Of a stretch of DNA of 64,000 bases, positions 864 through 52,147 are shown piece by piece. The notes below the pieces were generated by a model. That model searched no databases. It was not told the DNA's origin and saw nothing but the letters and a program-made list of their open reading frames with translations. Position 1 is the stretch's first letter; the number at the start of each line of letters is the position of its first letter. A program made the position numbers and the translations under genes. The DNA is from Ochromonas danica (Eukaryota; Sar; Chrysophyceae; Chromulinales; Chromulinaceae). Where the stretch lies: NCBI GenBank assembly GCA_015146655.1, contig VKHL01000004.1, positions 248,001-312,000 on the forward strand. The letters are read 5' to 3'.

Positions 864-3800
864 TTACACTTCATTCTCACTGATATTGTTGTCTTTAAGC
901 TCAGAAGCTTTAGTCTTAGTTGGCTTCACAGGGGAGGCATCATTAAGCGACTGGCTTTTGGCACCGGATGGTAAATAGTAACCCAAAGAGGAAGTATCAT
1001 AATTACCAGAAACCAAAGCATTGTAAAAGTCATGAACTTCTTCGATGATTTGAACAGCTTCATCAGGAGAAGTAGGTTCATCCTGCTTTAATTGGTTGAC
1101 TCCCTTTCCATCCGAGGTCTTGTAATTCTTCAACCAATCCACCAATTGACTCACGACACCGGGACGATATTTCTCGAGATCGTAGACGGAATCAACGGAG
1201 CTAGCAATAGGATCAGTTACACGCAAAGCGATGATTTTATGATCAGTTTCTCCTTCATCGATAAGGGCCATCGATCCGAGCACCTTGACAGGAACAACAC
1301 TACCCATAGGAAGAGGACCATGACCGAGTTCGATAACATCAATAGGATCCCCATCACCCTTAGACTTAGTGTCAGGGTCAACATGATCAACATCTTCCCA
1401 CGTACGAGGCAGAAGACCGTAGTTGAAGAAGGGCACACCATAAGTGTAATAGCGAGGCTTGTCATTCTTACTGTCTTGCATGATAGGATTGTTGCGTTCA
1501 GTTTTGCTCACTTCCATCTTCGCGGTGGAGTACATAGGAATCTCCACTACAAAGTTATAGTGACCATTTTCATTGCGAAGTGCAATATCATGCCAAGGAG
1601 AGATGGTCCTGCCTGCGTTCTTAAATGTGAGGCGATAGTCAGTTGTGCCATAAACACCACTGGCCACCACACCGGAGGCGATCTTGGGAGTAACATGCTG
1701 CACAGAATATGGCACCCAACGATCACTATCCACATTCTGATAGTAATCACAAACGATTTCCCAACCAGACTGGACCATGAAACCAGGAGGGATGCAATTA
1801 GCACCAAGGAGGTCAGAAGGAATCTCTTTTCCGTTGGAAACATCACAAGGGATAGCACCTTGGGCAGCCAACTTGCGCATCTTGGAGCCAGAGATCTCAA
1901 TGAAGTCGTCCGGACGAGACATCTCCTTAGCCTTCATGACATGATCACGTTTATCATAGTAAACCTGTCCGAAAGGCAAAATGTTCATGGGGTACTGTCC
2001 AGGTGACATTGTCAAAACATAGCGACCATGGTTGCCATCATAAAGATCATCGTCAGGATGAGCTTTGGCAATCTTTGAGCCCTTCATACCAGCAGGATCT
2101 CTGCCAGCCACGAAGTAAGTTGCACCAGCATTGCGACGAGACTTAGCATGGAAAAGCACTTCAGTAGGACCAGCATATATCATAGGAGCAGGCCAGATTG
2201 CCATGACAGTGTTCTCGGCGTCCAACATGCCTTCATTGATTACTGCCTCGTGTTGCTTAACACGAACATCCAGCGGCACATCATCACTTTTGGTCCAACC
2301 TCCCAAGGGGCTGAGCCAGAGAATGGGATTCTGATAGCCCTTCTGCTTCAAGATGTCTCTCGCAGTGCGCATAAGATAGGCATGACCAGCATGAGTAGGA
2401 TTACGTGTCTGGAAAGCATAGACTGCATCGGCTCCTTTCTTCTCGAACTCTTTCATCACTTCAGGGGCTGTCAAACGGAATTTGTCCAGGCCGTCGTTGT
2501 AGCGAATGCGCTGCAACAGTTCAATCTCACCACCAAGCAACCAGTCACCACCAGAATAAATATGCGAAATATACGGATGACCATCGTCAATAACACCAAA
2601 GATACGAGACACAATTTCTTCCTTGCGATTTAAGTAGATCTCAGGGCGACGCAAGATGGCAAGAGTCTCCCCGTGCTTGTTCACCAAGGCAACTGCACTC
2701 TTTCCAGATGACTCAATTGCACGCTTCGTGAACGCAGTGATAGGTAAAACAATAGGAACGGACATGGAAACACGTTTAGGAGGAACAGTCTTGAAATCCA
2801 AAAAGTTGGTTTGCATCTCATTAATGGCCTTAGAGCCAGTGATATTGAAAGGATCGACCAAAATAGAGTTGAAGTGCAGAGTTTGCAAAAGAGCACCCTC
2901 GCGCATGAAACCCTTCAGAGGAGCAGCCCAACCTTCGGCAATAGTTTGCAACCAGTTGACATCAATATCAGTCAAAAGAGCTTTTGGTAAAGTGGCTGCC
3001 TCGGCGGTTTTCGAAGCAACTTGATGCTTGGGGACCAAGAGATCCACGATTTCGTCACCATCAGGGTAAGGAAGACCATTAGGAAGCGTGGGTCCGCCAA
3101 CCAAAACTCCTTCTTTAACTAAAGCACGCATAATCATATCAACAGATTCCTGAATGGTCATGTCATGATTCTTCATCACAATTTCAGCCTTTGGTGGTGC
3201 TTCGTATGGATCATCTACGCCCGTGAAACCCTTCAGCTCACCAGCAGCAACCTTCTTGTAAAGTCCCTTAGGATCACGCTCTTGAACAACAGTGAGAGGA
3301 ACATCCATGAAAACCTCCACGAACTTGATCTTCTGTTCTTTGTGGCGTTGACGAACAGCATCACGATCAGCACGATAAGGAGAAACAAGCGATACAATAG
3401 TAATCATTCCAGCATCCGAAAAAAGGCAGGCCAACTCTCCAACTCGACGGACAGACTCAGCACGATCAGCTTTAGAAAAGCCCAAATCACGGTTAAGTCC
3501 AGTGCGAATATTGTCACCATCCAATCGATACACACTCTTTCCAAAACGAAGGACCAACTGTTCCTCCAATAAACTCGCAATAGTACTTTTTCCACTACCA
3601 GACAACCCAGTCATCCACAAGGTAATACCTTTTTGGTTGATGGCAGCATATCTTTTGCGGCGGGAAAGATGGCAAGCCTCTTGGGAGCCACCTTCTTCAG
3701 CCTCGGCACACTCAATAATATGAGGTGTAGTCTTCGCTAAGATTGCTTGACGGTAAGCACCAATATCAAAGTCACCGAGAGGACCAGAAGGAGAGGAAGG

Positions 3801-4148
3801 AGCAGCCAGCTCGGCCAGTGGCGCGATATTCTTCGCGCACTGTGTCTGCACAGCACTCGCTCTGGCCAAGACGTAGACGATAGCCGACAGGATTAAGCTA
3901 ATCAAAACAACCGTTGGGATATAGTTTAGAGGGGAGATTATGACACGGGAATAACAGAAAAAGATAACTTACAATCCCAGACAGATATCTCTCTTTTTGG
4001 TGAAATCATCTTGGGAATCAATTCTCGGAGGACGAGTATTGTTTGGATTCTAAGACAATTAGATATGATTAGACGAGATTGTTCTAATCAGAAATGGTGA
4101 AGATTACTCACTCACCTGAGACAAGGGGGAATAAGTGTAGTTGGGCAT
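864..4148 (-). CDS. APS kinase - ATP sulfurylase - inorganic pyrophosphatase fusion (PAPS synthesis)
   Basis: One protein carries three steps of sulfate activation. I join three exons: 4148-4116 (11 codons), 4049-3973 and 3897-864, with donors GTGAGT and GTAAGT and acceptors TTAG and TTAG, giving about 1047 aa. APS kinase: P-loop GLSGSGKST at ~134-142 and DGDNIRTGLNRDLGFS. ATP sulfurylase: QTRNPTHAGH at ~533-542 and GRDPAG at ~635. Pyrophosphatase: YGLLPRTWEDV and the DGDPIDV signature at ~885. The pyrophosphatase would remove the PPi made by the sulfurylase and pull PAPS synthesis forward. The two mini-exons put a hydrophobic segment (about residues 33-53) near the N-terminus, a likely signal anchor or targeting peptide. 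No ASAFAP plastid motif is evident. The open frame of exon 3 could also start at 3905, but the spliced start restores a clean hydrophobic anchor. This fusion order is known from heterokonts. Confidence 0.93.
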
Positions 4149-11344: not shown

Positions 11345-13533
11345 ATGTTGGCCAAAGCGAAAAATAACATCGTTGGCTTGGCCAGTCAATTCCATGTTTA
11401 TGCTCTTGGTAAAGAATAGATACCTTACAGCCAACTTCCAAGCACTATGTATTTACTTCGTCTGCTTTGAAATATCTATTAAATAATATACTTGAATGAA
11501 TACTGGATTTAAATACCTTTGCTATCCCTCGTGGCTCATGGATGTGGATGCTGTTAACAGGTGTTTGTATCATGTGCGGCAAGCAAACTGTCAAATGGCA
11601 ACAAGGTGAGAACTGAAGCTATTTATCATGGGGTGTCAACGTGCTTTATAATGCCACTTCCTCATTGGCAAATAGGATATGCTCTGTGTGGCTTCTACCT
11701 CTTCCTGGTGGTGTCTGCTCTTTACATCATCATGCACATCGTGCTGACTTTCTGCTTCGCTGAGCTGATCTCGATCGTTCCGTTCTCTGGCGGTGGCTAT
11801 GGCTACTCTCGTTGCTCTCTGGGTCCGAGCATGGGTTACATGGCAGGCATCGTGGAACTGGGCAAGTACTTGATCTACACGGTGACGAGTGTGACCCGTT
11901 TCGGTCTGATCTTCCAAGATGTGTATGGGTTTGGTGATCAATACTTGATAATGTGTTGGCTGTTGTTCTTCGTGGCGGTGAATGTGTTGCACTTGTTCGA
12001 TATGGAGTTGATTTGGGTGATGGTGGCGTTGGTGGGGATAACGACGGTGTCGATCCAGATCATGTTTGTGATTGGCGCGATGGAGAAAGGCACGACAACC
12101 AACATGTCAGCATCGACTTGGGACTCGGATCCGCAGCACTTCTTGATGGGGTTTCCGTACGCCGCGTATTTGATGGTGTCATCGGATGCCGTGCGCACGT
12201 GTGTGGATGATGAGGTAGGTGGTGAATGATGGAGTTGATATAGTTGTGTGTCTTTGCCGTAGAGTGAGTATGAGGCGATGTGACTGATTTGATTGTATAT
12301 TGTTGTTGGTATGTGTTATGTAGAGCAAGACGAAGGTTCCGAAGGCCTTGCTGCATATTCTTTATTGGTCAGCTTTAATCGCATTTGCCACGATGGTATC
12401 GCAATCAGCCTATGTTTACTCTGATAGCAGCGTAGGTGGGAGCGCGTATTCGTATCATATTGGTCTCAGTATTATGTTTCCAGATATCCGTAAAGCGGAT
12501 CTTCCTTTCTTTGCACTTCCCGGTACGATTGGTTGTGCTTTTGGGTTTCTATATTGTTCTGCTCGTCAAATGCGCTCGATGGCTTGTTCTGGCTTACTTC
12601 TTCCTGTATTGGCGAAGGGTCAGAAGGTAAAGAAAGTGATTGTGGATGATTCGAAGTTAGATCGAGTTCCATCATCCGTAGTGCCAAATGGCGAAGCTGT
12701 CTTGAGAGATCATCAGGCTAAAGAAGAGGTTCAAGTAGTTCTTTTTACCACTAAACCCACGTTAGCGTTGTTAGTATGTTCATTGGTGAGCTTCGTGTTG
12801 ATGGTAGTAGGGTATTATAAGCTACAGGATACGAACGCTACCTATACGAATGCAGGATCCTTGCTGAGATGTATTCAGTATTGTTTTCTCATGATGGCCT
12901 ACATCGCGTTTGCAACTCGATTCTCAGGCATGACGAGAGAGTTGACGAGTCCATTTGGAGTGTACGGAGCATTGGCAGTGTCGGGATTCTTCTCTATGCT
13001 GTTTATCTCGGCCCTGTACTATGATACGGACAATGAGGGCCAGGGAATCATGCTTGTGTTTTTATTCGTGTTAGGTCAGGTTCACTATTGGTGGGTGGTG
13101 GAGAAGAGGCAGTTCTTTTCAAAGGAGGAGCAGGAGAAGTTTTTGAAAGCATACATCGTGAATGGTAAGTACTAGTTATTTCGTGATGGTGTTGTGTTGT
13201 GGTCTGGTATTTTCGTTCATAGCAATTGTGTTTCTATCCGTTTGCTTTATATGACGTGTAATCTACTGTTGATTGTGGTTGTTTGATTACATGTAGTCTA
13301 CTGTTGGTTTGTGATATATGTGTTCATTGTGATGTTTTCGGTTGGTGTGACTTTACACAGCAAACAAACAGCGCAAGAACAAATCTTCGAAGAAGGACGG
13401 AATAATCGCTATTGATCTCTTTCATTACTTTAGTCGTGTGTGGTCAAGCAACAAAGTCAATCCTGGGATGAACAGCAAAGAAAGAAAGAAGAGTGGAGGA
13501 GGGTCTATGAACAGTTCCTCTTCTCATCGCTAA
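11345..13533 (+). CDS. APC-superfamily amino-acid/amine transporter, array copy 1
   Basis: Five exons: 11345-11408, 11561-11605, 11676-12214, 12324-13164 and 13361-13533, giving 553 aa. All introns are GT-AG and frames agree throughout. The N-terminal core reads YALGVCIMCGKQTVKWQQ, then GYALCGFYLF, FAELISIVPFSGGGYGYSR and LGPSMGYMAGIVE. That matches the TM1-TM3 pattern of amino-acid and ethanolamine permeases (ALGxG...G...W..G...GG, AEL...P..GG.Y.F.R). About 12 hydrophobic segments follow, with a hydrophilic loop near residues 320-360. The short cytosolic tail is Lys/Ser-rich. The 5-exon model places the permease glycine motif in frame, whereas reading straight through exon 2 and its intron does not. 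The substrate is unknown. Copies 2 and 3 follow on the same strand. Confidence 0.85.
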
Positions 13534-15107: not shown

Positions 15108-17223
15108 ATGTTGGCCAAAACAAAGAAGAATATATTTGATCTTGCCAGTCAATTCCATGTTTATGCACTTGGTAAATAACCCATTTTATCTAATAACTAT
15201 GTTATGTGTTATTACATCATGAGCAAAAACAATTACCGCTATCCTCTTCCTCCAAACCCTTCTCCTCATGATTTGTGCATATTGTCGATAGGTGTATGTA
15301 TCATGTGCGGCAAGCAAACTGTCAAATGGCAACAAGGTGAGAACTGAAGCTATTTATCATGGGGTGTCAACGTGCTTTATAATGCCACTTCCTCATTGGC
15401 AAATAGGATATGCTCTGTGTGGCTTCTACCTCTTCCTGGTGGTGTCTGCTCTTTACATCATCATGCACATCGTGCTGACTTTCTGCTTCGCTGAGCTGAT
15501 CTCGATCGTTCCGTTCTCTGGCGGTGGCTATGGCTACTCTCGTTGCTCTCTGGGTCCGAGCATGGGTTACATGGCAGGCATCGTGGAACTGGGCAAGTAC
15601 TTGATCTACACGGTGACGAGTGTGACCCGTTTCGGTCTGATCTTCCAAGATGTGTATGGGTTTGGTGATCAATACTTGATAATGTGTTGGCTGTTGTTCT
15701 TCGTGGCGGTGAATGTGTTGCACTTGTTCGATATGGAGTTGATTTGGGTGATGGTGGCGTTGGTGGGGATAACGACGGTGTCGATCCAGATCATGTTTGT
15801 GATTGGCGCGATGGAGAAAGGCACGACAACCAACATGTCAGCATCGACTTGGGACTCGGATCCGCAGCACTTCTTGATGGGGTTTCCGTACGCCGCGTAT
15901 TTGATGGTGTCATCGGATGCCGTGCGCACGTGTGTGGATGATGAGGTAGGTGGTGAATGATGGAGTTGATATAGTTGTGTGTCTTTGCCGTAGAGTGAGT
16001 ATGAGGCGATGTGACTGATTTGATTGTATATTGTTGTTGGTATGTGTTATGTAGAGCAAGACGAAGGTTCCGAAGGCCTTGCTGCATATTCTTTATTGGT
16101 CAGCTTTAATCGCATTTGCCACGATGGTATCGCAATCAGCCTATGTTTACTCTGATAGCAGCGTAGGTGGGAGCGCGTATTCGTATCATATTGGTCTCAG
16201 TATTATGTTTCCAGATATCCGTAAAGCGGATCTTCCTTTCTTTGCACTTCCCGGTACGATTGGTTGTGCTTTTGGGTTTCTATATTGTTCTGCTCGTCAA
16301 ATGCGCTCGATGGCTTGTTCTGGCTTACTTCTTCCTGTATTGGCGAAGGGTCAGAAGGTAAAGAAAGTGATTGTGGATGATTCGAAGTTAGATCGAGTTC
16401 CATCATCCGTAGTGCCAAATGGCGAAGCTGTCTTGAGAGATCATCAGGCTAAAGAAGAGGTTCAAGTAGTTCTTTTTACCACTAAACCCACGTTAGCGTT
16501 GTTAGTATGTTCATTGGTGAGCTTCGTGTTGATGGTAGTAGGGTATTATAAGCTACAGGATACGAACGCTACCTATACGAATGCAGGATCCTTGCTGAGA
16601 TGTATTCAGTATTGTTTTCTCATGATGGCCTACATCGCGTTTGCAACTCGATTCTCAGGCATGACGAGAGAGTTGACGAGTCCATTTGGAGTGTACGGAG
16701 CATTGGCAGTGTCGGGATTCTTCTCTATGCTGTTTATCTCGGCCCTGTACTATGATACGGACAATGAGGGCCAGGGAATCATGCTTGTGTTTTTATTCGT
16801 GTTAGGTCAGGTTCATTATTGGTGGGTGGTGGAGAAGAGGCAGTTCTTTTCAAAGGAGGAGCAGGAGAAGTTTTTGAAAGCTTACATCGTGAATGGTAAG
16901 TACTAGCTGTGGTGTGTTGTGTTGTGTTCTGGTATTTTCGTTCATAGCAATTGTGTTTCTATCCGTTTGCTTTATATGACGTGTAATCTACTGTTGGTTT
17001 GTGATATATGTGGTTTTTGTGATGTTTTCGGTCGATGTGACGTTACACAGCAAACAAACAGCGCAAGAACAAATCTTCGAAGAAGGACGGAATAATCGCT
17101 ATTGATCTCTTTCATTACTTTAGTCGTGTGTGGTCAAGCAACAAAGTCAATCCTGGGATGAACAGCAAAGAAAGAAAGAAGAGTGGAGGAGGGTCTATGA
17201 ACAGTTCCTCTTCTCATCGCTAA
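15108..17223 (+). CDS. APC-superfamily amino-acid/amine transporter, array copy 2 (hybrid of copies 1 and 3)
   Basis: Exons 15108-15171, 15292-15336, 15407-15945, 16055-16895 and 17051-17223 give 553 aa. The first exon (MLAKTKKNIFDLASQFHVYALG) and the upstream sequence match copy 3. Exon 4, exon 5 and the 3' flank match copy 1 almost perfectly: I see two base differences in exon 4, near 16815 and 16881. Function is as for copy 1, a 12-TM permease of unknown substrate. The arrangement, 5' part like the third gene and 3' part like the first, is what unequal crossing-over between copies 1 and 3 would leave between them. All key permease motifs are intact. Confidence 0.85.
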
Positions 17224-18650: not shown

Positions 18651-20630
18651 ATGTTGGCCAAAACAAAGAAGAATATATTTGATCTTGCCAGTCAATTCCA
18701 TGTTTATGCACTTGGTAATGTTTTGTTTTGTGTTATTACATCATGAGCATCAATAATTACTGTCATCCTCTTCCTCCAAACCCTTCCCCTCATGATTTGT
18801 GCATATTGTCGACAGGTATTTGCATCATGTGCGGCAAGCAAACTGTCAAATGGCAACAAGGTGAGAACTGAAGCTATTTATCATGGGGTGTCAACGTGCT
18901 TTATAATGCCACTTCCTCATTGGCAAATAGGATATGCTCTGTGTGGCTTCTACCTCTTCCTGGTGGTGTCTGCTCTTTACATCATCATGCACATCGTGCT
19001 GACTTTCTGCTTCGCTGAGCTGATCTCGATCGTTCCGTTCTCTGGCGGTGGCTATGGCTACTCTCGTTGCTCTCTGGGTCCGAGCATGGGTTACATGGCA
19101 GGCATCGTGGAACTGGGCAAGTACTTGATCTACACGGTGACGAGTGTGACCCGTTTCGGTCTGATCTTCCAAGATGTGTATGGGTTTGGTGATCAATACT
19201 TGATAATGTGTTGGCTGTTGTTCTTCGTGGCGGTGAATGTGTTGCACTTGTTCGATATGGAGTTGATTTGGGTGATGGTGGCGTTGGTGGGGATAACGAC
19301 GGTGTCGATCCAGATCATGTTTGTGATTGGCGCGATGGAGAAAGGCACGACAACCAACATGTCAGCATCGACTTGGGACTCGGATCCGCAGCACTTCTTG
19401 ATGGGGTTTCCGTACGCCGCGTATTTGATGGTGTCATCGGATGCCGTGCGCACGTGTGTGGATGATGAGGTAGGTGGTGAATGATGGAGTTGATATAGTT
19501 GTGTGTCTTTGCCGTAGAGTGAGTATGAGGCGATGTGACTGATTTGATTGTATATTGTTGTTGGTATGTGTTATGTAGAGCAAGACGAAGGTTCCGAAGG
19601 CCTTGCTGCATATTCTTTATTGGTCAGCTTTAATCGCATTTGCCACGATGGTATCGCAATCAGCCTATGTTTACTCTGATAGCAGCGTAGGAGAGACTAT
19701 CTACTCGTATAGCAAAGGATTTAGCGTTTTGTTTTCGCACATTATAATAGCTGATCTGCCGTACTTTGCACTTCCGGGTACGATTGGTTGTGCATTTGGG
19801 TTTCTATATTGTTCTGCTCGTCAAATGCGCTCGATGGCTTGTTCTGGCTTACTTCTTCCTGTGTTAGCGAAGGGTCAGAAAGTGAAGAAAGTGACTGTAA
19901 ATCGGGTTGCATCAACAGTAGCACCAACTGTGGAAGAGGATGAGTCTGTTTTATATACCACGAAACCCACGTTAGCATTGATAGTGTGTTCGATGGTGAG
20001 CTTCGTGTTGATGGTGATAGGATATTACAAGTTAGAGGATATTAACAACACCTATGCGAATGCAGGAGGCCTACTGAGATGTATTCAGTATTGTTTCCTC
20101 ATGATGGCCTACATTACCTTTGCAACTCGATTTTCGGACATGGCGAGAGAGTTGACGAGTCCATTTGGAGTGTACGGAGCATTTGCGGTATTGGGATTCT
20201 TCTCTATGTTGTTTGTCTCGGCCCTGTACTATGATACGGACAATGAGGGCCAGGGAATCATGCTTGTGTTTTTATTCGTGTTAGGTCAAGTTCACTATTG
20301 GTGGGTGGTGGAGAAGAGGCAGTTCTTTTCAAAGGAGGAGCAGGAGAAGTTTTTGAAAGCATACATCGTGAATGGTAAGTAGTTAGTGGGAGTAATTTTC
20401 ACAATCTGGTTTTCTCTCGAGGTGTTGGTCATTGTGTCTGATTTAAGTATGTGCTAATTGATGTAGCAAACAAACAGCGCAAGAACAAATCGTCCAAGAA
20501 GGATGCATCTGATCTTTTTCATTACCTTAATCGTGTGTGGTCGAGTAACAAGGTCAATCCTGGAGTGAATAGTCAAGAAAGAAAGAAGAGTGCAGGAGGT
20601 TCTGTAAACAGTTCCTCTACTCGTCGCTAA
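18651..20630 (+). CDS. APC-superfamily amino-acid/amine transporter, array copy 3
   Basis: Exons 18651-18714, 18816-18860, 18931-19469, 19579-20374 and 20467-20630 give 535 aa. Exon 3, introns 2 and 3 and the first part of exon 4 are identical to copies 1 and 2. After position ~19691 the sequence diverges abruptly: the extracellular loop changes from GGSAYSYHIGLSIMF to GETIYSYSKGFSVLF, and the cytosolic loop is 15 residues shorter, losing the VPNGEAVLRDHQ region. The C-terminal tail also differs. TM segments remain intact. Such differences in one outer loop and one inner loop could change substrate preference or regulation; that is inference. Confidence 0.85.
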
Positions 20631-21614: not shown

Positions 21615-24600
21615 TTAGAGTCCAGCATACTGTACATCTCTTTGTAAAGGTGAATATTGTAAATTCACTACTCGATTCTGACGTCTCTTTGACCAAAACT
21701 CGACAGCTTTGCTAAAGAGATTGGCCACAAGATAGTCCTGATACACTGCTTGCACAACCCAACTGATAAGAATGAACAAGATCATATATCCAGCACGCAT
21801 TTTCAAGGGTAATGCTTTAAAGTAAGAACGGCTAGGATGAGAGGGATGATAGGCATATTTATGATGAGAAATGAAAGTGAAATAGAACTTTAAGAAGACA
21901 TCCTGTAGTACATAGACTGTATAGGAAGTATACCCCAAGAAGTTCATCACATCACTTTCTAAGAAGAGTCGAGAGAAGTTGTATCGACTAGATCCACGTT
22001 GATGAACACTAACCAATACAAACAATGAGAAGAGACAAGGAAGAATTATATCAGCATTATATTTTGTAAACTCTTTTGATGCTTCATCATAACGACATAA
22101 TCCATATTTACATGACATCAAAATACCTGACACTACAGCAATAGCATCAGGTAGAAACCTCCATACTAATCCCAATACTTGACAGCCAAGGTAAATCAGA
22201 ATAGACTGTGGGGAAGATGATAATAACGAAGGACGATGATGATGATCGTCTTCAGAAGATTGATCACCAGAAGATACTGAACCTGCAGGGATAGCAATAC
22301 TTGTTGCATTAGGAGCTAATATTCTATCCATACACCAATTCTTCACTTTGGAAACATAGTAATTGATATCATCTGTTGGAGACCGTAATTTTTCACTTTT
22401 CCCCGTCTCGACATGATTCGTTAATACTATACGACACCAAGATAACATCTCTGAAGCAGCAAGTAACCAAGCACCTCCCAAGAAATAGGAGAACATGTTA
22501 AGAATCCTATTTCATCACAAGAAACATGATGATTAGAAACACAACAGTCACAACGACAGATTGAAGAGAGTTGATACTACTTACTTGAGATCTCGTTGCG
22601 AGACTCCATAATAAAGCAATACTGGTACTCCAAGGAAGAATAGACAACTAATCAAAAGGATATCTGGATGATAGAGATTATAACTTAAATACAGAGAGAC
22701 TTTGCCAAAATATTCTCCCCAAGTCTGACCAGCAACTCGAAGAGGAATAGTTTTACTAAATCCAACACTTTCACTGCAAATTTTGGATGCAGAAGTTTGA
22801 AGAGTCATCTTTCTTAATAATGTAGACCAAATATAACGCATGATACCATAAAATAACATGCAATTAATAAGAGCAGAAGCAAAGCGTAAACCTGGACCAT
22901 ATTGAAGACAAAAGCTATACACATCCATACCAAATACATCGAGAAATGTACAAACTGCTGCTTGTTTGCTTTGAGGTAATCCAGGAGCATGATTTTTAAA
23001 TTGATATTGATCTGCCAAATACCAAGCTGGAGCATATAATACTAAATTCAACCATAAAATAGGATAGAGACCAACAGCTCGAAGTAACCAAAATCTTAAT
23101 ACTTGGAATGGTTCTTTAGGTGTTAATTCAAGTTCATCATTATTTCCACTTAAACCAACTTTCTTCTTTATTTCAAGTGGTATTCTTAATTGAGAAGCAG
23201 TTGTAAAACCAGATAAGAGATAAAAGAAAGTTGTATCAACAGTCATAGCATTAGAGAATTCCATGTTATCACTATGCCAATGATCATAAAGAACCATAAA
23301 GGTGAACACACCACGAAGACCTTCAAACAATCTCTTATTAGCAAGAAGACTAGCACCATAATAGTCAATTAATTGCATGGGATGGAATTTTTGACCAGAA
23401 CCTTCTCCATTCTCCAAGAGAGATTCCCAATCACTATTTTTGGCATCTTTCTCAGAGATTAGATGTAATTTCTCTCTTATCTTGAGACTGGATCGATCAT
23501 ATAGCAACTGTCCAAGATCTCGAATAGTTCGACCAGGTACAAACAAGTCATCCAACTTGATTGAAACTTCACCATGGAAGGCGTTACTGATTTGTCTTAA
23601 TAACATGACAGAACCTAGAGAATCCAATCCAAAGCCACCCAAGTTATTGTCAATACTTGGATAGTGACCTCGAAGCATCTGGATGATCTCACAAATAATT
23701 GAAGAGACTGGACGATCAGCATCCAAAGGACGTGACGCCATCACTGATGCCATCTTGACAGTCACTCGACAATCAGGTGCATCATCAAGTGGACGCAATT
23801 CCCTTGGATCTGGTAGAGCTTTCTTATCTAACTTTCCATTAGGAGTCTTGATGAAATCCTTGATAATCACAGTATATTTAGGAATCATATAATAGGTTAA
23901 CTTGGTAGCTGCTCTCTCATGAATGCGTTGAAGCAGTTCTCTGCTTAATTTATGCTCTGGCACTGTAGGATCATCGCTAATATCAGTAACTGGGGTATCC
24001 TTGGAGGGGAGAAGATAGATGACAATCTTATTAGATCGAACAAGTGCTACTGCCTTCTCGACATGATCATCTTCCATATAGACTTTCTCAATTTCTTCTA
24101 ATTCAATACGAAACCCATCAATCTTCACTTGATCATCTAATCTACGTACAAAGACGAAGTTTCCATCAGAAAGCTGTTTTACCACATCACCAGTACGATA
24201 GATATATCCTTCTCCAAAAGGATTCTGTATAAATCGTTCTTGTGTTAGATGTGGAGCATGTAAATAACCTGCAGCAACACCAACACCACCAATCCATAGT
24301 TCTCCTTCTTCACCTTGAGCAACTTCTGACCAGGGTTGATTCTCTCCCACCACATAGAGAAGAGTCTGCGAAATGGCCTTACCAATAGGGACTGCCTTGA
24401 TCCCCATGTTCATGGAATAGTTAGCAAAGTCCTTCTCAATGCGGAAACTAGTGGACCAAATGGTAGTTTCAGTGGGACCATACACATTTAACAAACTTGC
24501 ACAATGTTGAGCAATTGGCAACAGAGAAGGTCGAAAAGCTTCACCTCCGACAAGAAATTGAATATGGACATCCCCAGTCCAACCAGTTGCTAATAACATC

Positions 24601-25442
24601 TCATAGGTCGTAGGAGTTGCTTGAAAGATATCAACTTCATGACTATCCATAAGCTCAAGGATACGAAAAGGATCTTTTCGAGTTGATGATAAAGCTAAGA
24701 TGAAACAACCACCTCGAGTCAAAGGTAGAAAGATTTCTAAAACGGATATATCAAAGCAAAATGTTGTCAAACCTAATACCCGACTCTTTTCAGTCACTTG
24801 TAATTCTTCAGCAAAGAAATGGATGATATTATCAACACCAACTTGCTTCACAGCCACACCTTTTGGTTTACCTGTTGAACCGGATGTATAAAGAACATAA
24901 GCCAAAGCTTCCATATTGTGATTCAAACGTGGAATCTGATGATGGCACACAGTTTCGGATGTCTCCTCTTCCATGATATCGGAAACAGTGGTGCCATCAT
25001 AGAGATAAGTGATAATATTACCATCATGAGCACTAATGAGAATGTGCTTAGCAGCAATGGGCATATTAGCTTCTTTGGCCTTCTTGAAACATTCTTCATC
25101 CACAATGAGCACATTGCAACGAGAATGTTCAAGAATGTATGCTTGACGATCAGGTGGAAAAGCGGGATCAACAGGGACATAGGCACAACCAGCTTTATGC
25201 ACACCTAGCATCATAGTGATGATGCCAATATGTCTCTCCATCAAGAGACCCACCAAGGGTGTTCCTTCTGACTCCACCACTACTTCATCCAAATGAAGAA
25301 GTTTGATCAACCACTTGGCAATGCAAGAGGCACGATCATTCAGAGAGGCATAAGTCACGAAAGAGCCATCCTCACAGACAACAGCCAAAGAGTCTGGAGA
25401 AAGAGTTGCAGCTTCTTCAAATCGATCGATGATGAACTTCAT
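21615..25442 (-). CDS. NRPS-like protein: adenylation - carrier - membrane acyltransferase-3 fusion
   Basis: Two exons, 25442-22585 and 22506-21615, joined by a 78-nt intron (GTAAGT...AATAG), give 1249 aa. Adenylation domain (~1-560): LYTSGSTGKPKGVAVK (~186-201), VYGPTETTIWS, YRTGD and NGKLDKKALP. Carrier domain: GGFGLDSLGSVML with the phosphopantetheine serine at Ser608. From ~695 a multi-span membrane domain begins with FEGLRGVFTFMVLYDHWH, carrying the Arg-X10-His motif (Arg710, His721) of acyltransferase-3 (OafA-type) proteins, then FFYLLSGFTTA. Hydrophobic segments continue to the end of exon 2. There is no condensation, thioesterase or reductase domain. The Asp of FDIS, which pairs with an alpha-amino group, is present, so an amino acid is the likely substrate. 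Inferred reaction: activate an amino acid, load it on the carrier, transfer it to a membrane-linked acceptor. Confidence 0.88.
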
Positions 25443-26335: not shown

Positions 26336-27001
26336 TCAAATATCACTTGGCAGTGAATTTGGTGGAAAGAACTTTGGCAAATCCTCTCTATTCGTAAATT
26401 GAACTTTCTGGACTGTCACGGGATCCAACCAATGCTTGATAATCGCCCAACAAGCATAGAAGATGAAAGGTGCATTGATCACCAGAGCAGTTTCTAAAGT
26501 TTCAGGATAGTTATATTGCAGAATATTTACAAGAAGCTTCACAGCATCATAATCCATGCAACTATAGGAAAACCCACTGAGATCAAAGCAGATGAGAATA
26601 CGTTCTTCATGAGGTCTTGTCTTTCTTATTGTCGTCTCTAATGTATAGATGATTAATTGCCGAATTTGCTCTAGATCACGTTCATTTTTATTATGACGTC
26701 GAGCATATATGAAGATAGCTGGACGACCTTGTAAATCTGCATCCACAACTCGCAACTTCTGCGAATTCATCTCACCTTGGAAATTGGACAATTTATCACT
26801 TATGGAATCAACTTCATTCTCTTCTCTCCATTCTAAATGTCTATTTAATGCTTTAAAAGCTTTCTCTTCGTCGTGCTTCCTTCCACGAAGAAAACGCAAG
26901 ATTGTGGTATCTGTGAATTTCTCACGATGCTCTTCAGCGAGTCGTGTCTTTAATCGTTCGACTGCTGCCAGTTCATCGTTTGTAGGTGGTTGATAGCTCA
27001 T
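26336..27001 (-). CDS. CRAL-TRIO (SEC14-like) lipid-binding protein, copy 1
   Basis: About 221 aa from the ATG at 27001. The frame is open further upstream (to 27199), but the two paralogues start at the equivalent MAYVPPT, so I choose MSYQPPT. The N-terminal helical CRAL-TRIO-N part (LAAVERLKTRLAEE, TTILRFLRGRKHDEEKA) is followed by the lipid-binding fold (GRPAIFIYARRH, ILICFDLSGFSYSCMDYD, LETALVINAPFIFYACWAIIKHWLDP). Such proteins carry phosphoinositides or other hydrophobic ligands between membranes. It is the most diverged of three neighbouring copies and lacks their Ser/Thr-rich C-terminal tail. Confidence 0.85.
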   Translation of the reverse strand: MSYQPPTNDELAAVERLKTRLAEEHREKFTDTTILRFLRGRKHDEEKAFKALNRHLEWREENEVDSISDKLSNFQGEMNSQKLRVVDADLQGRPAIFIYARRHNKNERDLEQIRQLIIYTLETTIRKTRPHEERILICFDLSGFSYSCMDYDAVKLLVNILQYNYPETLETALVINAPFIFYACWAIIKHWLDPVTVQKVQFTNREDLPKFFPPNSLPSDI

Positions 27002-27367
27002 TGCTTGGTGCCAATTATCTATTAAGAAAAGAAGAGGCGAATAACTAACGAACGAAAAGAAGACGAAGATCCGATGTGGGATTCGTCGCCTGGCATGAAC
27101 TTCCATGGAATCATTAGATGGACCTACCAAATCCATGGAATGACCAAAAGACCAAAAAAGGCAATGATATGTGTTTTGCATAAAGGACAAGGGAAGCATC
27201 CTCTACTTACAACGATAACTAAACGCAGAATATTTATCATGGAAGTAGATGCAGAATGAAGAGTATTCGCTGTTGGAGAATCCTATCAATGTGCACACTA
27301 CTATGTGCAATTGTACTTTATTGACATCAACATTGTCATGAACAAGACAATTATACTCTTCAATTCT
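27002..27367. other. Spacer between CRAL-TRIO copies 1 and 2
   Basis: About 370 bases holding the promoter and 5' UTR of copy 1 and the 3' UTR of copy 2. An in-frame N-terminal extension of copy 1 (to 27199) is open but not supported by the paralogues. Confidence 0.5.
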
Positions 27368-28156
27368 TCACGCACTGCCATTCTCTTTGCTGCTGCACTC
27401 GTCATCGGTCGCACTACCCGCAGGAGTCCGAGTACTGTTCGTCAGGATCTTTGAACTCGTCGTTGCACTATTGAAACCGGACTCTGGTACAGGAATTGAC
27501 TCTGGATCGAAGAAATCTGTCAGTTTCGAGCGACGAATGAAATTGACCTTCCCAGCGGTGATGGGGTCAATCCAGGGTTTGATGATAGCCCAGCAGGCAC
27601 TGAAGAGCATGGGAGCATCCACCACGACCAATGTCTCCAAAGTATCGGTATAGTTAGTCTGCAATATATTCACAAGTTTTTTAACAGCTTCATAATCCAT
27701 ACAAGATAGACTGAAGCGGCCCATGTCCACCACAACGGTGAAGCGCTCTTCTTCAGGCTTAGACAGCTTCACCAAAGACTCCAAGAGATACATTACGAAC
27801 AAGCTAAACTCTTCTATATCACGATCATTCGCATTGTGCTTGTGTATGTAGATAAAGCCAGCAGGTCGGCCCTTCTTGTCAAATGTGCCAACAGATGCGA
27901 GACCAGAGCATAAGATCTTTTGGAAACGATCCGTCATGTTGTCAATATTATCCACTGAGTTTACTACACGCCATTCTTGATGCTTCACTAACTGATCAAG
28001 GGCCACTTCCTCATTGGCCTTCACTCCACGATAAAAACGCAAAATACAGGTGTCAGTAATCCGAGGAGAAATATTCCCATTTAATTTTTCTAGTAACTGA
28101 GTTTTAAGACGATCGACAGCAGCAAGTTCTGTTTGAGTAGGAGGAACATAAGCCAT
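27368..28156 (-). CDS. CRAL-TRIO (SEC14-like) lipid-binding protein, copy 2
   Basis: Intronless, 262 aa, starting MAYVPPTQTELAAVDRLKTQ. CRAL-TRIO-N helices (TDTCILRFYRGVKANEE) precede the SEC14 fold (GRPAGFIYIHKHNAND, FTVVVDMGRFSLSCMDYEAVK, LETLVVVDAPMLFSACWAIIKPWIDPITAGKV). A tail of ~45 Ser/Thr-rich residues follows, with no recognised motif. A 194-bp block in the 3' part is identical to copy 3 while the surrounding sequence differs, indicating recent gene conversion. The ligand is unknown. Confidence 0.88.
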   Translation of the reverse strand: MAYVPPTQTELAAVDRLKTQLLEKLNGNISPRITDTCILRFYRGVKANEEVALDQLVKHQEWRVVNSVDNIDNMTDRFQKILCSGLASVGTFDKKGRPAGFIYIHKHNANDRDIEEFSLFVMYLLESLVKLSKPEEERFTVVVDMGRFSLSCMDYEAVKKLVNILQTNYTDTLETLVVVDAPMLFSACWAIIKPWIDPITAGKVNFIRRSKLTDFFDPESIPVPESGFNSATTSSKILTNSTRTPAGSATDDECSSKENGSA

Positions 28157-28609
28157 GATGATAATTAGAAATAGTTTTGATCCAGCGTTAGATTTTGGAT
28201 TGCTAGATTGTGTTCGTTGAGCTTTCTTGCTGCCGGCGTTGATCGTTCACTGGGACTGTGGTTGGGGTGCTGGGCTAAATAGTGGGTTAAAAGCCTGTTT
28301 TTCTTATTTTTCGAAGGGTGCAGAGAAATTCCAGAATTGGTTTGATTCAGGAGCCCTTGCTCCGTAAGTGTAATAACGATAGACATGGTGTACACAACAG
28401 TTCATTTCTGTGAATACTAATACTTTCATCAGAGCTTCATATCAATGGAAAAGACTGCTTCAAAAGCTCTAATAGTTACATGGATCGCACACACACGTAA
28501 AAAACACGGAAAATTTCCCAGATAACAGTTCATAAAGAAATATGAAAATAACATGCCCAAATGACCCCATGATTGTTATGAACAAGCAACATCTTTTCTC
28601 TTCAATTCT
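28157..28609. other. Spacer between CRAL-TRIO copies 2 and 3
   Basis: About 450 bases: promoter side of copy 2 and 3' UTR of copy 3. No gene seen. Confidence 0.55.
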
Positions 28610-29398
28610 TCACGCACTGCCATTCTCTTTGCTGCTGCACTCGTCATCAGTCGTACTGACCGCAGGAATCCGAGTACTGTTCGTCATAATTTTGGAACTC
28701 GTCGTTGCACTATTGAAACCGGACTCTGGTACAGGAATTGACTCTGGATCGAAGAAATCTGTCAGTTTCGAGCGACGAATGAAATTGACCTTCCCAGCGG
28801 TGATGGGGTCAATCCAGGGTTTGATGATAGCCCAGCAGGCACTGAAGAGCATGGGAGCATCCACCACGACCAATGTCTCCAAAGTATCAGAATAATTTGT
28901 TTGAAGTAGAGCCAATAGGATTTTAACACCTTCATAGTCCATATTGGCCAGACCAAAGCCGCCCATGTCAATTACAATTGTGAAGCGCTCTTCTTCAGGC
29001 TTAGACAGCTTCACCAAAGATTCCAAGATATAAATAACAAACAGAGTAAAATCTTCAATATTACGATCACTCGCATTATGTTTTTGGGCATAATTAAAGG
29101 ATGCAGGTCGGCCCTTCTTGTCAAATGTACCAATAGAGGTCAACCCGGAGCATAAGATCTTTTGGAAACGATCTGTCATGTTGTCAATATTATCCACGGA
29201 GTTTGCTACACGCCATTCTTGATGCTTCACTAACTGATCAAGGGCCGCATCCTCATTGGCCTTCACTCCACGATAAAAACGCAATATGCAGGTATCGGTA
29301 ATCCGAGGAGAAATATTCCCATTTAATTTTTCTAGTAATTGAGTTTTAAGACGCTTGACAGCAGCAAGTTCTGTTTGAGTAGGAGGAACATAAGCCAT
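28610..29398 (-). CDS. CRAL-TRIO (SEC14-like) lipid-binding protein, copy 3
   Basis: 262 aa from the ATG at 29398, the same length and start (MAYVPPTQTELAAVKRLKTQ) as copy 2. The frame continues open upstream to 29671 with a hydrophobic stretch (WSALILIVLTMLKV). A membrane-anchored longer form is therefore possible, but the paralogue start makes the short form more likely. Differences from copy 2 cluster in the ligand-binding middle: FNYAQKHNASDRN instead of FIYIHKHNANDRD, and FGLANMDYEGVKILLALLQ instead of FSLSCMDYEAVKKLVNILQ. This suggests diverged ligand preference despite homogenised ends. Confidence 0.86.
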   Translation of the reverse strand: MAYVPPTQTELAAVKRLKTQLLEKLNGNISPRITDTCILRFYRGVKANEDAALDQLVKHQEWRVANSVDNIDNMTDRFQKILCSGLTSIGTFDKKGRPASFNYAQKHNASDRNIEDFTLFVIYILESLVKLSKPEEERFTIVIDMGGFGLANMDYEGVKILLALLQTNYSDTLETLVVVDAPMLFSACWAIIKPWIDPITAGKVNFIRRSKLTDFFDPESIPVPESGFNSATTSSKIMTNSTRIPAVSTTDDECSSKENGSA

Positions 29399-29739
29399 GA
29401 TGATGAGATTAGATATGCCACTTCCAATCAGAGCAATCCGGAACATCTGCTGACTGGATTTTGCCGCAGAGTGTTCTTTTGTTCCGTTGACTTGACCGTT
29501 GACTACTGCAACCAGCGCAGCAGCACAAGAAACTGTGTCATCTGTAACTCGAACTTTGAGCATCGTTAGAACGATTAGAATCAGTGCAGACCAGATAGTG
29601 TGTCTGTATTGATAGAGAATATGATTTCCGATTTTCGGTGTCATCATTATATATGTTGTCAGTAGTGGCACAAGATCTATCTCCCGCTAAAATACTGTTC
29701 TTAACATTTAATCGTTACATTAGAGACGTGAGAACCAAT
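29399..29739. other. Spacer upstream of CRAL-TRIO copy 3
   Basis: About 340 bases. Part of it (to 29671) is an open in-frame extension of copy 3 of doubtful coding status. It also holds the 3' UTR of the next minus-strand gene. Confidence 0.45.
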
Positions 29740-50114: not shown

Positions 50115-50719
50115 ATCCGAAATACTACATTTTTGAACGACCTATTCATTGTTTATACTCAATTTAGTTGTTTATTTATTATGTGTAACTTCTCTACTAT
50201 GACCAGATGATGATGTTGGTAGATGGTCGTAGAGTATGTTTCATCTGAATGTGTTGTAAATTTCAATTCTACATTCACGTAAATAGTCTACTACTAGCCT
50301 TTCTTACTCTGTGTTTATTAGACACTTCAAGGTCAGTTAGCAAAATCAGAATATCATCCCATAGATTAGGCTGATCTATTCACAGCTACAATCCTAAGCT
50401 GTTAGTCGTGTTGATGGTTATTAATTAGTCTAAAATCACTCTCATCACGGCATTTTGCAACGTGTTTCGGGAGGACTTGAAGTAGTAAACCCTGATTTTG
50501 TTATTTTAAACCCTCATTTCTGCCTTTTCCTTAACCCTTTCTCACAAAAACCTCTGTGTTGCAGTCTTTCCCAGACTTCCCCTTGACAACAACAATGACA
50601 ACAATGACAACAAGTCAATAGACAAAGCAGGAACAGACTGGATTGTCATTTTCTTTCTGTCTAGAATAATCAAACCTGACAAAATTGATCAAACAAAACA
50701 AACAACACACTCTCTTCCA
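50115..50719. other. Spacer upstream of the radical SAM gene
   Basis: About 605 bases with no gene. A run of AACAATGACAA repeats lies near 50587-50613. The last ~60 bases are AC-rich and likely 5' UTR. Confidence 0.5.
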
Positions 50720-52147
50720 ATGAATAATCTTCTGAAATATCCAGCTATTGGTTGTTATCGAAGTAGAAGAAATGTCGTCTTGACTAGTAGACAATTCTTC
50801 TCATCGTTCACTTCTTCTTCATTGGCCAATATGAAGAAGAACAAGAAATTACAATTAGTGTCTTTAGATTGGACTCGACCTAAAGATCCACCACTTTCTC
50901 TCGGTCATGCTTCAATTCTGGCTAACTTACGACATCATGCAGTAGAGGATGTAACTCATGCTGCCTGGTCTGTCAACAATCCACAATTTAGTATTAACTC
51001 TGTTCTTGACTTTTTATTCACTTCACCTACTACAGAAAGTTATGCTGCCTTTGGAGCTTTTGTATGGAATGAAAAAGCAATACAAGAGATTATTCAAACA
51101 CTACGCAAGGAAGGTTATCCAGGCAAGATTCTCTTAGGTGGTCCACAAGTTAGTTATGTCAACACGAATGATATCGAACACTACTATCCTCATGCTGATG
51201 TCTTTATTCGTGGATATGGTGAAGATGTCATAACACAGTTTATGATGAGTAAAGAAAGTCAACCTGATATTCAAGGTATTCAATATGCTGGCCAACAAAG
51301 AAATGGAAATGGCAAATCTACTGCTGCTATTGTAGATTTGAATACTTTACCATCTCCTTTCTTAATGGGTATCATTCCTAAACAACGTTTTCTTCGATGG
51401 GAAACACAACGTGGATGTCCTTTTCGTTGTTCATTTTGTCAACATCGAGAATCTGATCCAATCAATTTAAAACGTAAAGAATTTGCTTATAATCGAATTC
51501 AACAAGAAATTGATTGGATTGTTGAAGATCATATAGTACAAGATCTTGCTGTTCTAGATCCAACGTTTAATACAGGAGGTAGTGGTCAATATTTGAATAT
51601 CTTAAAGAGGTTGACAGAGAAGAAATACTCTGGTAAGATTGCTTTACAATGTCGTTTAGAAATGGTCACGATGGATTTTCTTGATCATGTTGAAGCATTA
51701 AATCAAACTAGTCATGTTGTCTTAGAATTTGGTTTACAGACTATTCATAAGAAAGAACAATTTTATATTCAAAGACCAAATAACCTCAAGAAGATTGAAA
51801 GGATTTTAGAAGAAGTTAATAAGCGTAAGATTGATTGTGAGATCTCATTGATCTTTGGTCTACCTGGACAAACTTTACAAACATTCCAAGAATCTGTTGA
51901 TTATTGTCTATCACATCATATTAAGACAATTCATGCTTTTCCTCTTATGTTATTACGAGGAACTAAGTTATTTGATCAAAAGCAAGATCTTGGATTAATT
52001 GAATCTTCTGATGTTAATATTGATGGAATTCCAAGAGTTCAAGAAGGGATTTCTCATGTCATTACTAGTCCATCATTTTCTTATAATGATTGGCTAAGAA
52101 TGAGTGAAATCGCTCAAGAACTTGAGAAGCGTAATCAACAAGCATGA
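50720..52147 (+). CDS. Radical SAM enzyme with B12-binding-type N-terminal domain
   Basis: Intronless, 475 aa. After ~40 residues that look like a mitochondrial presequence (YRSRRNVVLTSRQFFSSF) comes a Rossmann-type domain of the B12-binding kind (KILLGGPQVSYV, VFIRGYGEDVI). The radical SAM domain follows with CPFRCSFC (CX3CX2C for the [4Fe-4S] cluster), preceded by LRWETQRG. Downstream are LQCRLEMV, VVLEFGLQTIHKKE and EISLIFGLPGQTLQTFQESVDYC. This is the class B (cobalamin) layout common in bacteria. No DxHxxG motif is seen, so B12 could bind base-off without that histidine or not at all. No N-terminal methyltransferase signature reveals the substrate. Lack of introns and a bacterial-style architecture suggest acquisition from bacteria. 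Confidence 0.85.
   Translation: MNNLLKYPAIGCYRSRRNVVLTSRQFFSSFTSSSLANMKKNKKLQLVSLDWTRPKDPPLSLGHASILANLRHHAVEDVTHAAWSVNNPQFSINSVLDFLFTSPTTESYAAFGAFVWNEKAIQEIIQTLRKEGYPGKILLGGPQVSYVNTNDIEHYYPHADVFIRGYGEDVITQFMMSKESQPDIQGIQYAGQQRNGNGKSTAAIVDLNTLPSPFLMGIIPKQRFLRWETQRGCPFRCSFCQHRESDPINLKRKEFAYNRIQQEIDWIVEDHIVQDLAVLDPTFNTGGSGQYLNILKRLTEKKYSGKIALQCRLEMVTMDFLDHVEALNQTSHVVLEFGLQTIHKKEQFYIQRPNNLKKIERILEEVNKRKIDCEISLIFGLPGQTLQTFQESVDYCLSHHIKTIHAFPLMLLRGTKLFDQKQDLGLIESSDVNIDGIPRVQEGISHVITSPSFSYNDWLRMSEIAQELEKRNQQA

Follow-up and report, generated by a model that had tools for sequence, protein, structure and literature searches.

A single-chain fusion of adenylation, carrier and acyltransferase-3-like membrane domains in Ochromonas danica

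In the bacterial DltA-DltC-DltB system of D-alanylation, an amino acid is activated in an ATP-dependent reaction, held as a thioester on a carrier and delivered by a multi-span membrane transferase. Adenylation (A) and peptidyl carrier protein (PCP) domains also occur in one chain, both in the enzymes related to nonribosomal peptide synthetases (NRPS) with A-PCP-X organization, such as AASDH/ACSF4, ebony and L-aminoadipate reductase, and in the Pls/PosA family, in which A-PCP is followed by a membrane region. The gene analyzed here is located in a 64,000-nucleotide stretch of the genome of the chrysophyte Ochromonas danica (assembly GCA_015146655.1, contig VKHL01000004.1, positions 248,001 to 312,000; hereafter the window, whose own numbering is used for coordinates), and it codes for a predicted A-PCP protein with a C-terminal membrane half that appears to derive from acyltransferase-3 (AT3) proteins. 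The reading preferred here, with a probability of roughly 0.58, is that of a single-chain membrane enzyme that would activate glycine, load it onto its own carrier domain and deliver it, by way of the AT3 pore, to an acceptor on the extracytosolic side.

Like the Dlt system, the window protein has an activation domain, a carrier and a multi-span membrane domain of transferase type, but in one chain instead of several, with an AT3/TmAT domain instead of MBOAT and with a glycine-type specificity code. A preliminary description of this DNA had presented the gene as Dlt logic fused in one chain with AT3 replacing MBOAT. The replacement stands, as no MBOAT family was reported in the Pfam scans of the family members and AT3 profiles match instead, and the likeness is kept as an analogy of working logic only; the DltA model NF003417 matches the A domain with 230.3 bits, below its cut-off of 476. 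With the A-PCP-X enzymes the protein shares a free-standing A-PCP followed by one C-terminal module, which here is an AT3-like membrane domain. An A-PCP pair and a C-terminal membrane region are also common to Pls/PosA, although TIGR02353 was not among the best 25 of 93 families for exon 1. The genome encodes two other proteins of related design: a separate carrier-membrane fusion with a terminal domain of Pls/PosA type (L025, G000:C145 near 65424; TIGR02353 E 8e-37, below cut-off) and an A-PCP-beta-propeller protein of ACSF4 type, distinct from the window gene (L020, G000:C15 145069-146586).

The AT3/TmAT proteins (PF01757; OafA, OafB, OatA, Oac) have 10 transmembrane helices (TMH), and the window AT3 region has 11 hydropathy peaks. 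Both share, in the same order, [D/E]xxR-x10-H in TMH1, F[FY]x(I/L/V/M)SG in TMH2, the first Arg of RxxR in TMH3 and SxxxY in TMH9. Unlike them, the window protein and its paralogues have Gly in place of the second Arg of RxxR and Gln in place of the TMH9 His, are fused behind A-PCP and fall below Pfam detection.

The gene, its paralogues and the activation half

The gene lies on the minus strand, with its ATG at 25442 and a stop codon that ends at 21615, and its two exons give a spliced product of 1249 amino acids; these limits and the 78-nt GT-AG intron are as first described. A search of the genome (31.19 Mb, 337 contigs) with exon 1 as query has revealed five further complete copies with 71-73% identity to exon 1, one on contig C1 and four on contig C74 (L008, L009, L010 and L011), as well as a broken seventh copy (G000:C155 4795-6129) that covers only residues 218-673 approximately, in pieces, some of them with internal stops. 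Introns of 60, 79, 79, 81 and 68 nt with GT-AG ends are found in the five paralogues at the same position. Domain order, intron position and key residues are conserved across the six copies, which confirms the A-PCP-AT3 order. Because the five paralogues share this order and carry, at the same site, introns that differ in length or sequence, the two exons are assigned to one gene, as the preliminary description supposed. The window gene is taken to be functional and one of six intact family members, with the same modest preference as the overall explanation to which this belongs.

The A domain begins directly at the N-terminus and is complete, with 214.2 bits for PF00501 (cut-off 29.9) and 338.2 bits for the amino-acid adenylation model TIGR01733 (cut-off 317.4). 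D231 and K537, which are taken to be positions 235 and 517 in GrsA numbering, are invariant in the alignment with bacterial domains, and the segments around them are identical in all six copies. The carrier domain scores 23.4 bits for PF00550 (cut-off 20.8); its predicted attachment residue Ser608, named already in the preliminary description, is located within LDSL, at the position where four bacterial carrier domains have the Ser of GGHSL/GGNSL, and LDSLG is present in 6/6 copies. As also described before, condensation, thioesterase or reductase families were not reported in the Pfam scan of the full protein at E up to 1.

The specificity code had been read by hand as DILALGVIWK. Nine of these residues, including the Asp, are kept, but the fourth is better read as Gln274 and not Ala275, because Gln274 lies three residues before the conserved Pro277, presumably the place of GrsA position 278; with this placement by eye the code becomes DILQLGVIWK. 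The code positions in the pocket-shaping segments are identical in the six copies. This code is one change from DILQLGMIWK, given in PMC12283262 for four glycine domains, and the same surroundings are found in two cyanobacterial NRPS domains (MQATPA[ST]W and WNLYGPTETTIWS). On both grounds glycine is most likely the substrate, as predicted by bacterial code rules with placement by eye.

Relationship of the membrane half to AT3 proteins

Published AT3/TmAT motifs (PMC7448272, PMC12423673) were used as reference. They are found in order in the six copies, and in the window protein they read E707xxR710-x10-H721, F740YLLSG745, R788 and S1147xxxY1151. Among 20,000 composition shuffles made from the window copy, the strict ordered pattern occurred in none and a loose form in 106. 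Arg710-x10-His721, described earlier as the opening of the membrane region, is the only match of its kind listed for the chain, and R/K-x10-H in TMH1 is kept in all copies.

A hidden Markov model (HMM) was built with seven AT3s from outside the family, L004 (a near-duplicate of L002) and L050 being excluded; four of the seven contain the ordered pattern of the family, and L056, L057 and own0 lack one element each. The model was run on 2584 sequences, consisting of 1286 open reading frames (ORFs), the six AT3 regions of the family and the reversals of both. The six regions scored 16.3-26.8 bits (E 6e-4 to 4e-7), and the next sequence after them, their own ORFs and the true AT3 L130 reached 3.6 bits (E 4.4). 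In the two alignments viewed, the matches form two collinear blocks: exon 1 contributes TMH1-3 and exon 2 the TMH9 block. A profile-profile comparison was carried out with hhalign between the family (alignment A1, five of the six copies, L009 being omitted as near-identical to L008) and four AT3s encoded in this genome with scores above the Pfam cut-off. It gave a probability of 80.8, E 1.3e-5 and a score of 50.1 over TMH1-3, compared with a maximum of 35.7 in 120 block shuffles and 22.4 with the reversed alignment.

Several results weigh against this relationship. PF01757 did not match the full protein at E up to 1 or any of the five members scanned at E up to 10, and AT3 was not found in the PDB profile search. 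When hhalign was run against seven AT3s, three of them bacterial, the score fell to 40.0, reached by one of 120 shuffles, and a profile of the three bacterial AT3s alone aligned 18 columns of TMH3 with E 0.36. On the AT3 HMM, none of the six scores lower than the window copy (E 6e-4), and an AlphaFold2 model of its AT3 part made without an alignment had a mean predicted local distance difference test score (pLDDT) of 37.9 and was discarded. Because the Pfam AT3 family is silent, the AT3 label rests on the more sensitive profile and motif tests. The AT3 identity first proposed is thus retained on the profile-profile comparison, the HMM and the ordered motifs, without the PF01757 match, and AT3 ancestry below Pfam detection appears well supported.

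Two departures were revealed by a motif comparison of the six copies with nine AT3s, in which L130 and L145 were added for the motif table only; L050, which scores on PF01757, looks OpgC-like and is without the RxxR and SxxxY patterns, was left out. RxxR before the Pro of TMH3 is present in the nine AT3s, while the six copies keep the first Arg and have Gly as the second (RAVG). The His located three residues after the TMH9 Tyr, also present in 9/9 AT3s, is Gln in 6/6 copies.

Proposed mechanism and rival explanations

The number of Lys and Arg residues is 3 before TMH1, 0 in loop 1 and 6 in loop 2, and because of these charges around TMH1 and TMH2 the activation half is placed in the cytosol, on the donor side of AT3. 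As AT3s deliver to the extracytosolic side according to PMC7448272 and PMC12423673, the acceptor is suggested to lie at the cell surface or in the lumen of the secretory pathway.

In the proposed mechanism, the cytosolic A domain would convert an alpha-amino acid, most likely glycine, into its aminoacyl-AMP, and the amino acid would be loaded onto the phosphopantetheine arm of Ser608. The carrier may then dock at the cytosolic mouth of AT3, so that the arm, about 20 angstroms long, would replace acyl-coenzyme A (acyl-CoA) inside the pore. His721 and its neighbours would finally transfer the glycyl moiety onto a hydroxyl or an amine at the extracytosolic (luminal) face, in an acceptor such as a glycan or a lipid that may differ between copies. 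Two matches to the phosphopantetheinyl-transferase family (ACPS) are present in the genome and were counted toward a carrier-fed enzyme.

With regard to the donor, a simulation of OafB described in PMC9833829 has the second Arg of RxxR (R74), together with R14, K279 and R338, holding the 3'-phosphate of CoA, and in PMC7448272 the R-x10-H spacing is proposed to span the distance from this phosphate to the thioester, about 19 angstroms. The lost second Arg fits a carrier donor because a carrier-bound phosphopantetheine arm lacks the 3'-phosphate. However, only the first Arg is general in the TmAT superfamily according to PMC12423673, and HGSNAT, outside AT3, binds acetyl-CoA, so the loss of the second Arg alone does not exclude CoA. 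Acyl-CoA rather than acyl-carrier protein is argued as the AT3 donor in PMC9558356, which also reports that InterPro classes AT3 as transferring non-amino-acyl groups. The carrier-bound thioester that the preliminary description proposed as acyl donor therefore gains indirect support from the Arg lost in 6/6 copies, which fits it without being a proof, and the aminoacyl transfer remains a proposal.

An alternative that is considered unlikely keeps ordinary acyl-CoA as the donor, the carrier being the acceptor: AT3 would acylate the carrier-held amino acid or its product to give an N-acyl amino acid. Acyl-CoA is the donor reported for AT3s (PMC9558356, PMC12423673), and R710 and H721 are retained, as is the first Arg of RxxR. 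Nevertheless, the six copies have Gly in place of the Arg that the OafB model (PMC9833829) assigns to the CoA 3'-phosphate, the carrier is predicted to be cytosolic whereas AT3 delivery is extracytosolic in PMC12423673, and no release domain was reported in the Pfam scan. Another possibility, which seems rather improbable, is that a separate protein, such as a free condensing or amine-selecting enzyme, receives the amino acid, the AT3-derived region serving as a mere anchor or channel. The divergence from canonical AT3s, with no Pfam match and with RxxR and the TMH9 His altered, would agree with such a role, but a plain anchor would not need the R-x10-H, FxxxxG, first Arg and SxxxY retained in six copies, and the purifying selection on the AT3 half of diverged C74 copies (dN/dS 0.22-0.35, see below) also argues against it.

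It is also conceivable that two adjacent genes, or a chance membrane stretch, have been read as a single protein, since the intron was placed from the sequence only. This is very improbable, because the open frame of exon 1 by itself joins the A domain to the first AT3 helices without a stop, domain order and intron site are repeated in five paralogues whose introns differ in length or sequence, and the N-terminal block of the AT3 profile falls in exon 1 and the C-terminal block in exon 2. The carrier-fed transferase of glycine is preferred to these three alternatives.

Evolution of the family, other genomes and neighbouring genes

The four C74 genes are identical in every nucleotide from about codon 20 to codon 703, that is, over activation halves of 2.1 kb, with small N-terminal differences in L009 (codon 7) and L010 (codons 11, 14 and 19). 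For most pairs, divergence begins abruptly at codon 704, in AT3 helix 1, with a later onset at codon 721 for L010 versus L011 and at codon 814 for L008 versus L009. Beyond this break there are three diverged types, with synonymous divergence (dS) of 0.32-0.47 in the AT3 part of exon 1 and 0.43-0.89 in exon 2. The ratio of nonsynonymous to synonymous divergence (dN/dS) of AT3 between the three types is 0.22-0.35, a range that excludes the close pair L008-L009 (0.36 and 0.58, with few changes), and according to it the AT3 half of the diverged C74 copies is under purifying selection. In comparisons among the window copy, C1 and C74, saturation at synonymous sites is extensive, so that dN/dS values carry little weight. 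Identity between the upstream flanks of L008, L010 and L011 is about 40-60%, close to the chance level, with the exception of the last 150 bases of L008 versus L011 (0.74).

The simplest reading of this pattern is gene conversion that homogenizes the activation modules, with the membrane halves left to vary, although the identical halves may come from an assembly artefact. No evident biosynthetic cluster was seen by eye around the copies in C74 1-80000 and C1 97000-116000. A more elaborate proposal, held tentatively at slightly less than even odds, is that of a self-contained transmembrane aminoacyl transferase whose AT3 pore would have given up its ligand for the CoA nucleotide, would take a cytosolic carrier arm and would hand glycine across the membrane, with a near-constant, apparently gene-converted activation module and a varied transferase.

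The domain order that the preliminary description had suggested looking for in other genomes was not found in the plasmid, viral and bacterial collections searched. In plasmids, no tblastn match to the AT3 part was obtained, and none of the 2072 records that match exon 1 covers 80% of it at one place. Exon 1 gave 6 pattern matches and no relatives in viral contigs, and A1 gave 41 pattern matches and no relatives in contigs of bacterial genomes. With a broad A-domain query on genome contigs, none of the matches listed (80 of 443 relatives) passes query residue 688, and in the ORFs of these 80 loci the AT3 HMM found one AT3, in a separate ORF. Sets of 25, 195, 392 and 398 bacterial genomes (three genomes counted twice; L062 lies outside them) were searched with A1 and yielded 0, 0, 0 and 1 matched genomes; absence is not implied, as the empty answers had no positive control. 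The only match, among the 398 genomes of the phylum of Pseudoxanthomonas, is a stand-alone AT3 beside a glycosyltransferase-like frame, which supports the AT3 identity. In Nostoc linckia, a stand-alone AT3 gene (L130 3322-4476) lies upstream of an NRPS-type A domain. Two candidates were rejected: L080, the sole motif match in an A-domain ORF, did not resemble AT3, and among the plasmid hits a Rhizobium frame looked like an NRPS with other inserts. Among the papers listed in the literature searches, none was recognized as describing an A-PCP-AT3 protein.

Table 1. Features of the A-PCP-AT3 gene in window coordinates
Feature	Position	Strand	Basis
Exon 1: A domain, carrier and first part of AT3 (residues 1-952 plus two bases)	22585..25442	-	Open frame; paralogues 71-73% identical
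Intron, 78 nt, GTAAGT...AAATAG	22507..22584	-	GT-AG splice sites; intron at the same position in five paralogues
Exon 2: remaining AT3 domain with the TMH9 SxxxY block, and stop codon	21615..22506	-	AT3 profile matches exon 2 frame alone, 9.2 bits, E 0.084
AMP-binding core, residues 8-394	24261..25421	-	PF00501 E 3.4e-63; TIGR01733 residues 30-465
Carrier (PCP) domain, residues 596-647	23502..23657	-	PF00550 E 7.2e-5
Ser608, predicted phosphopantetheine attachment site	23619..23621	-	Alignment with bacterial carrier Ser
AT3-like membrane domain, residues 700-1249, split by the intron	21618..23345	-	Profiles, motifs, 11 hydropathy peaks
Arg710-x10-His721 (TMH1 motif of AT3), with Glu707 before it at the place of the Asp in DxxR	23280..23315	-	Kept in 6/6 copies
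FYLLSG, residues 740-745 (AT3 TMH2 motif)	23208..23225	-	Motif comparison
RAVG, residues 788-791 (RxxR with second Arg changed to Gly)	23070..23081	-	RAVG in 6/6 copies; RxxR in 9/9 compared AT3s
SYTVY, residues 1147-1151 (AT3 TMH9 SxxxY motif)	21912..21926	-	Motif comparison

Other genes were observed in the window. On the minus strand, a single frame (864-3968) combines adenylylsulfate kinase, sulfate adenylyltransferase and inorganic pyrophosphatase, and three tandem CRAL-TRIO-like frames (26336-29686; the first alone was scanned) adjoin the gene under study. Three tandem amino-acid-permease-like genes (11558-13175, 15292-16906 and 18747-20382; only the first copy was scanned) are located on the plus strand, opposite to that of the A-PCP-AT3 gene, and by eye their first long frames share the same protein sequence over about 220 amino acids. 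Also on the plus strand, 50510-52147 codes for a B12-binding radical S-adenosylmethionine protein whose best match, below cut-off, is a KedN5-type methylcobalamin-dependent methyltransferase. Elsewhere in the genome, a large NRPS frame of 3332 codons (G000:C141 7081-17877) lies adjacent to a 544-codon frame that is polyketide-synthase-like by eye, and 47 matches to light-harvesting proteins and two weak matches to silicon transporters were found, suggesting a photosynthetic stramenopile.

In PMC9558356, AT3s are described as acyl-CoA transferases for non-amino-acyl groups, and a fused A-carrier module would supply amino acids directly to such a protein. If this is true, the O. danica family would parallel bacterial D-alanylation in a eukaryote, with a transferase drawn from another membrane family. 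The possibility that AT3 pores take a carrier arm in place of CoA becomes testable with this family, and the four C74 copies, with near-identical activation halves and membrane halves of three types, constitute a natural series for acceptor specificity.

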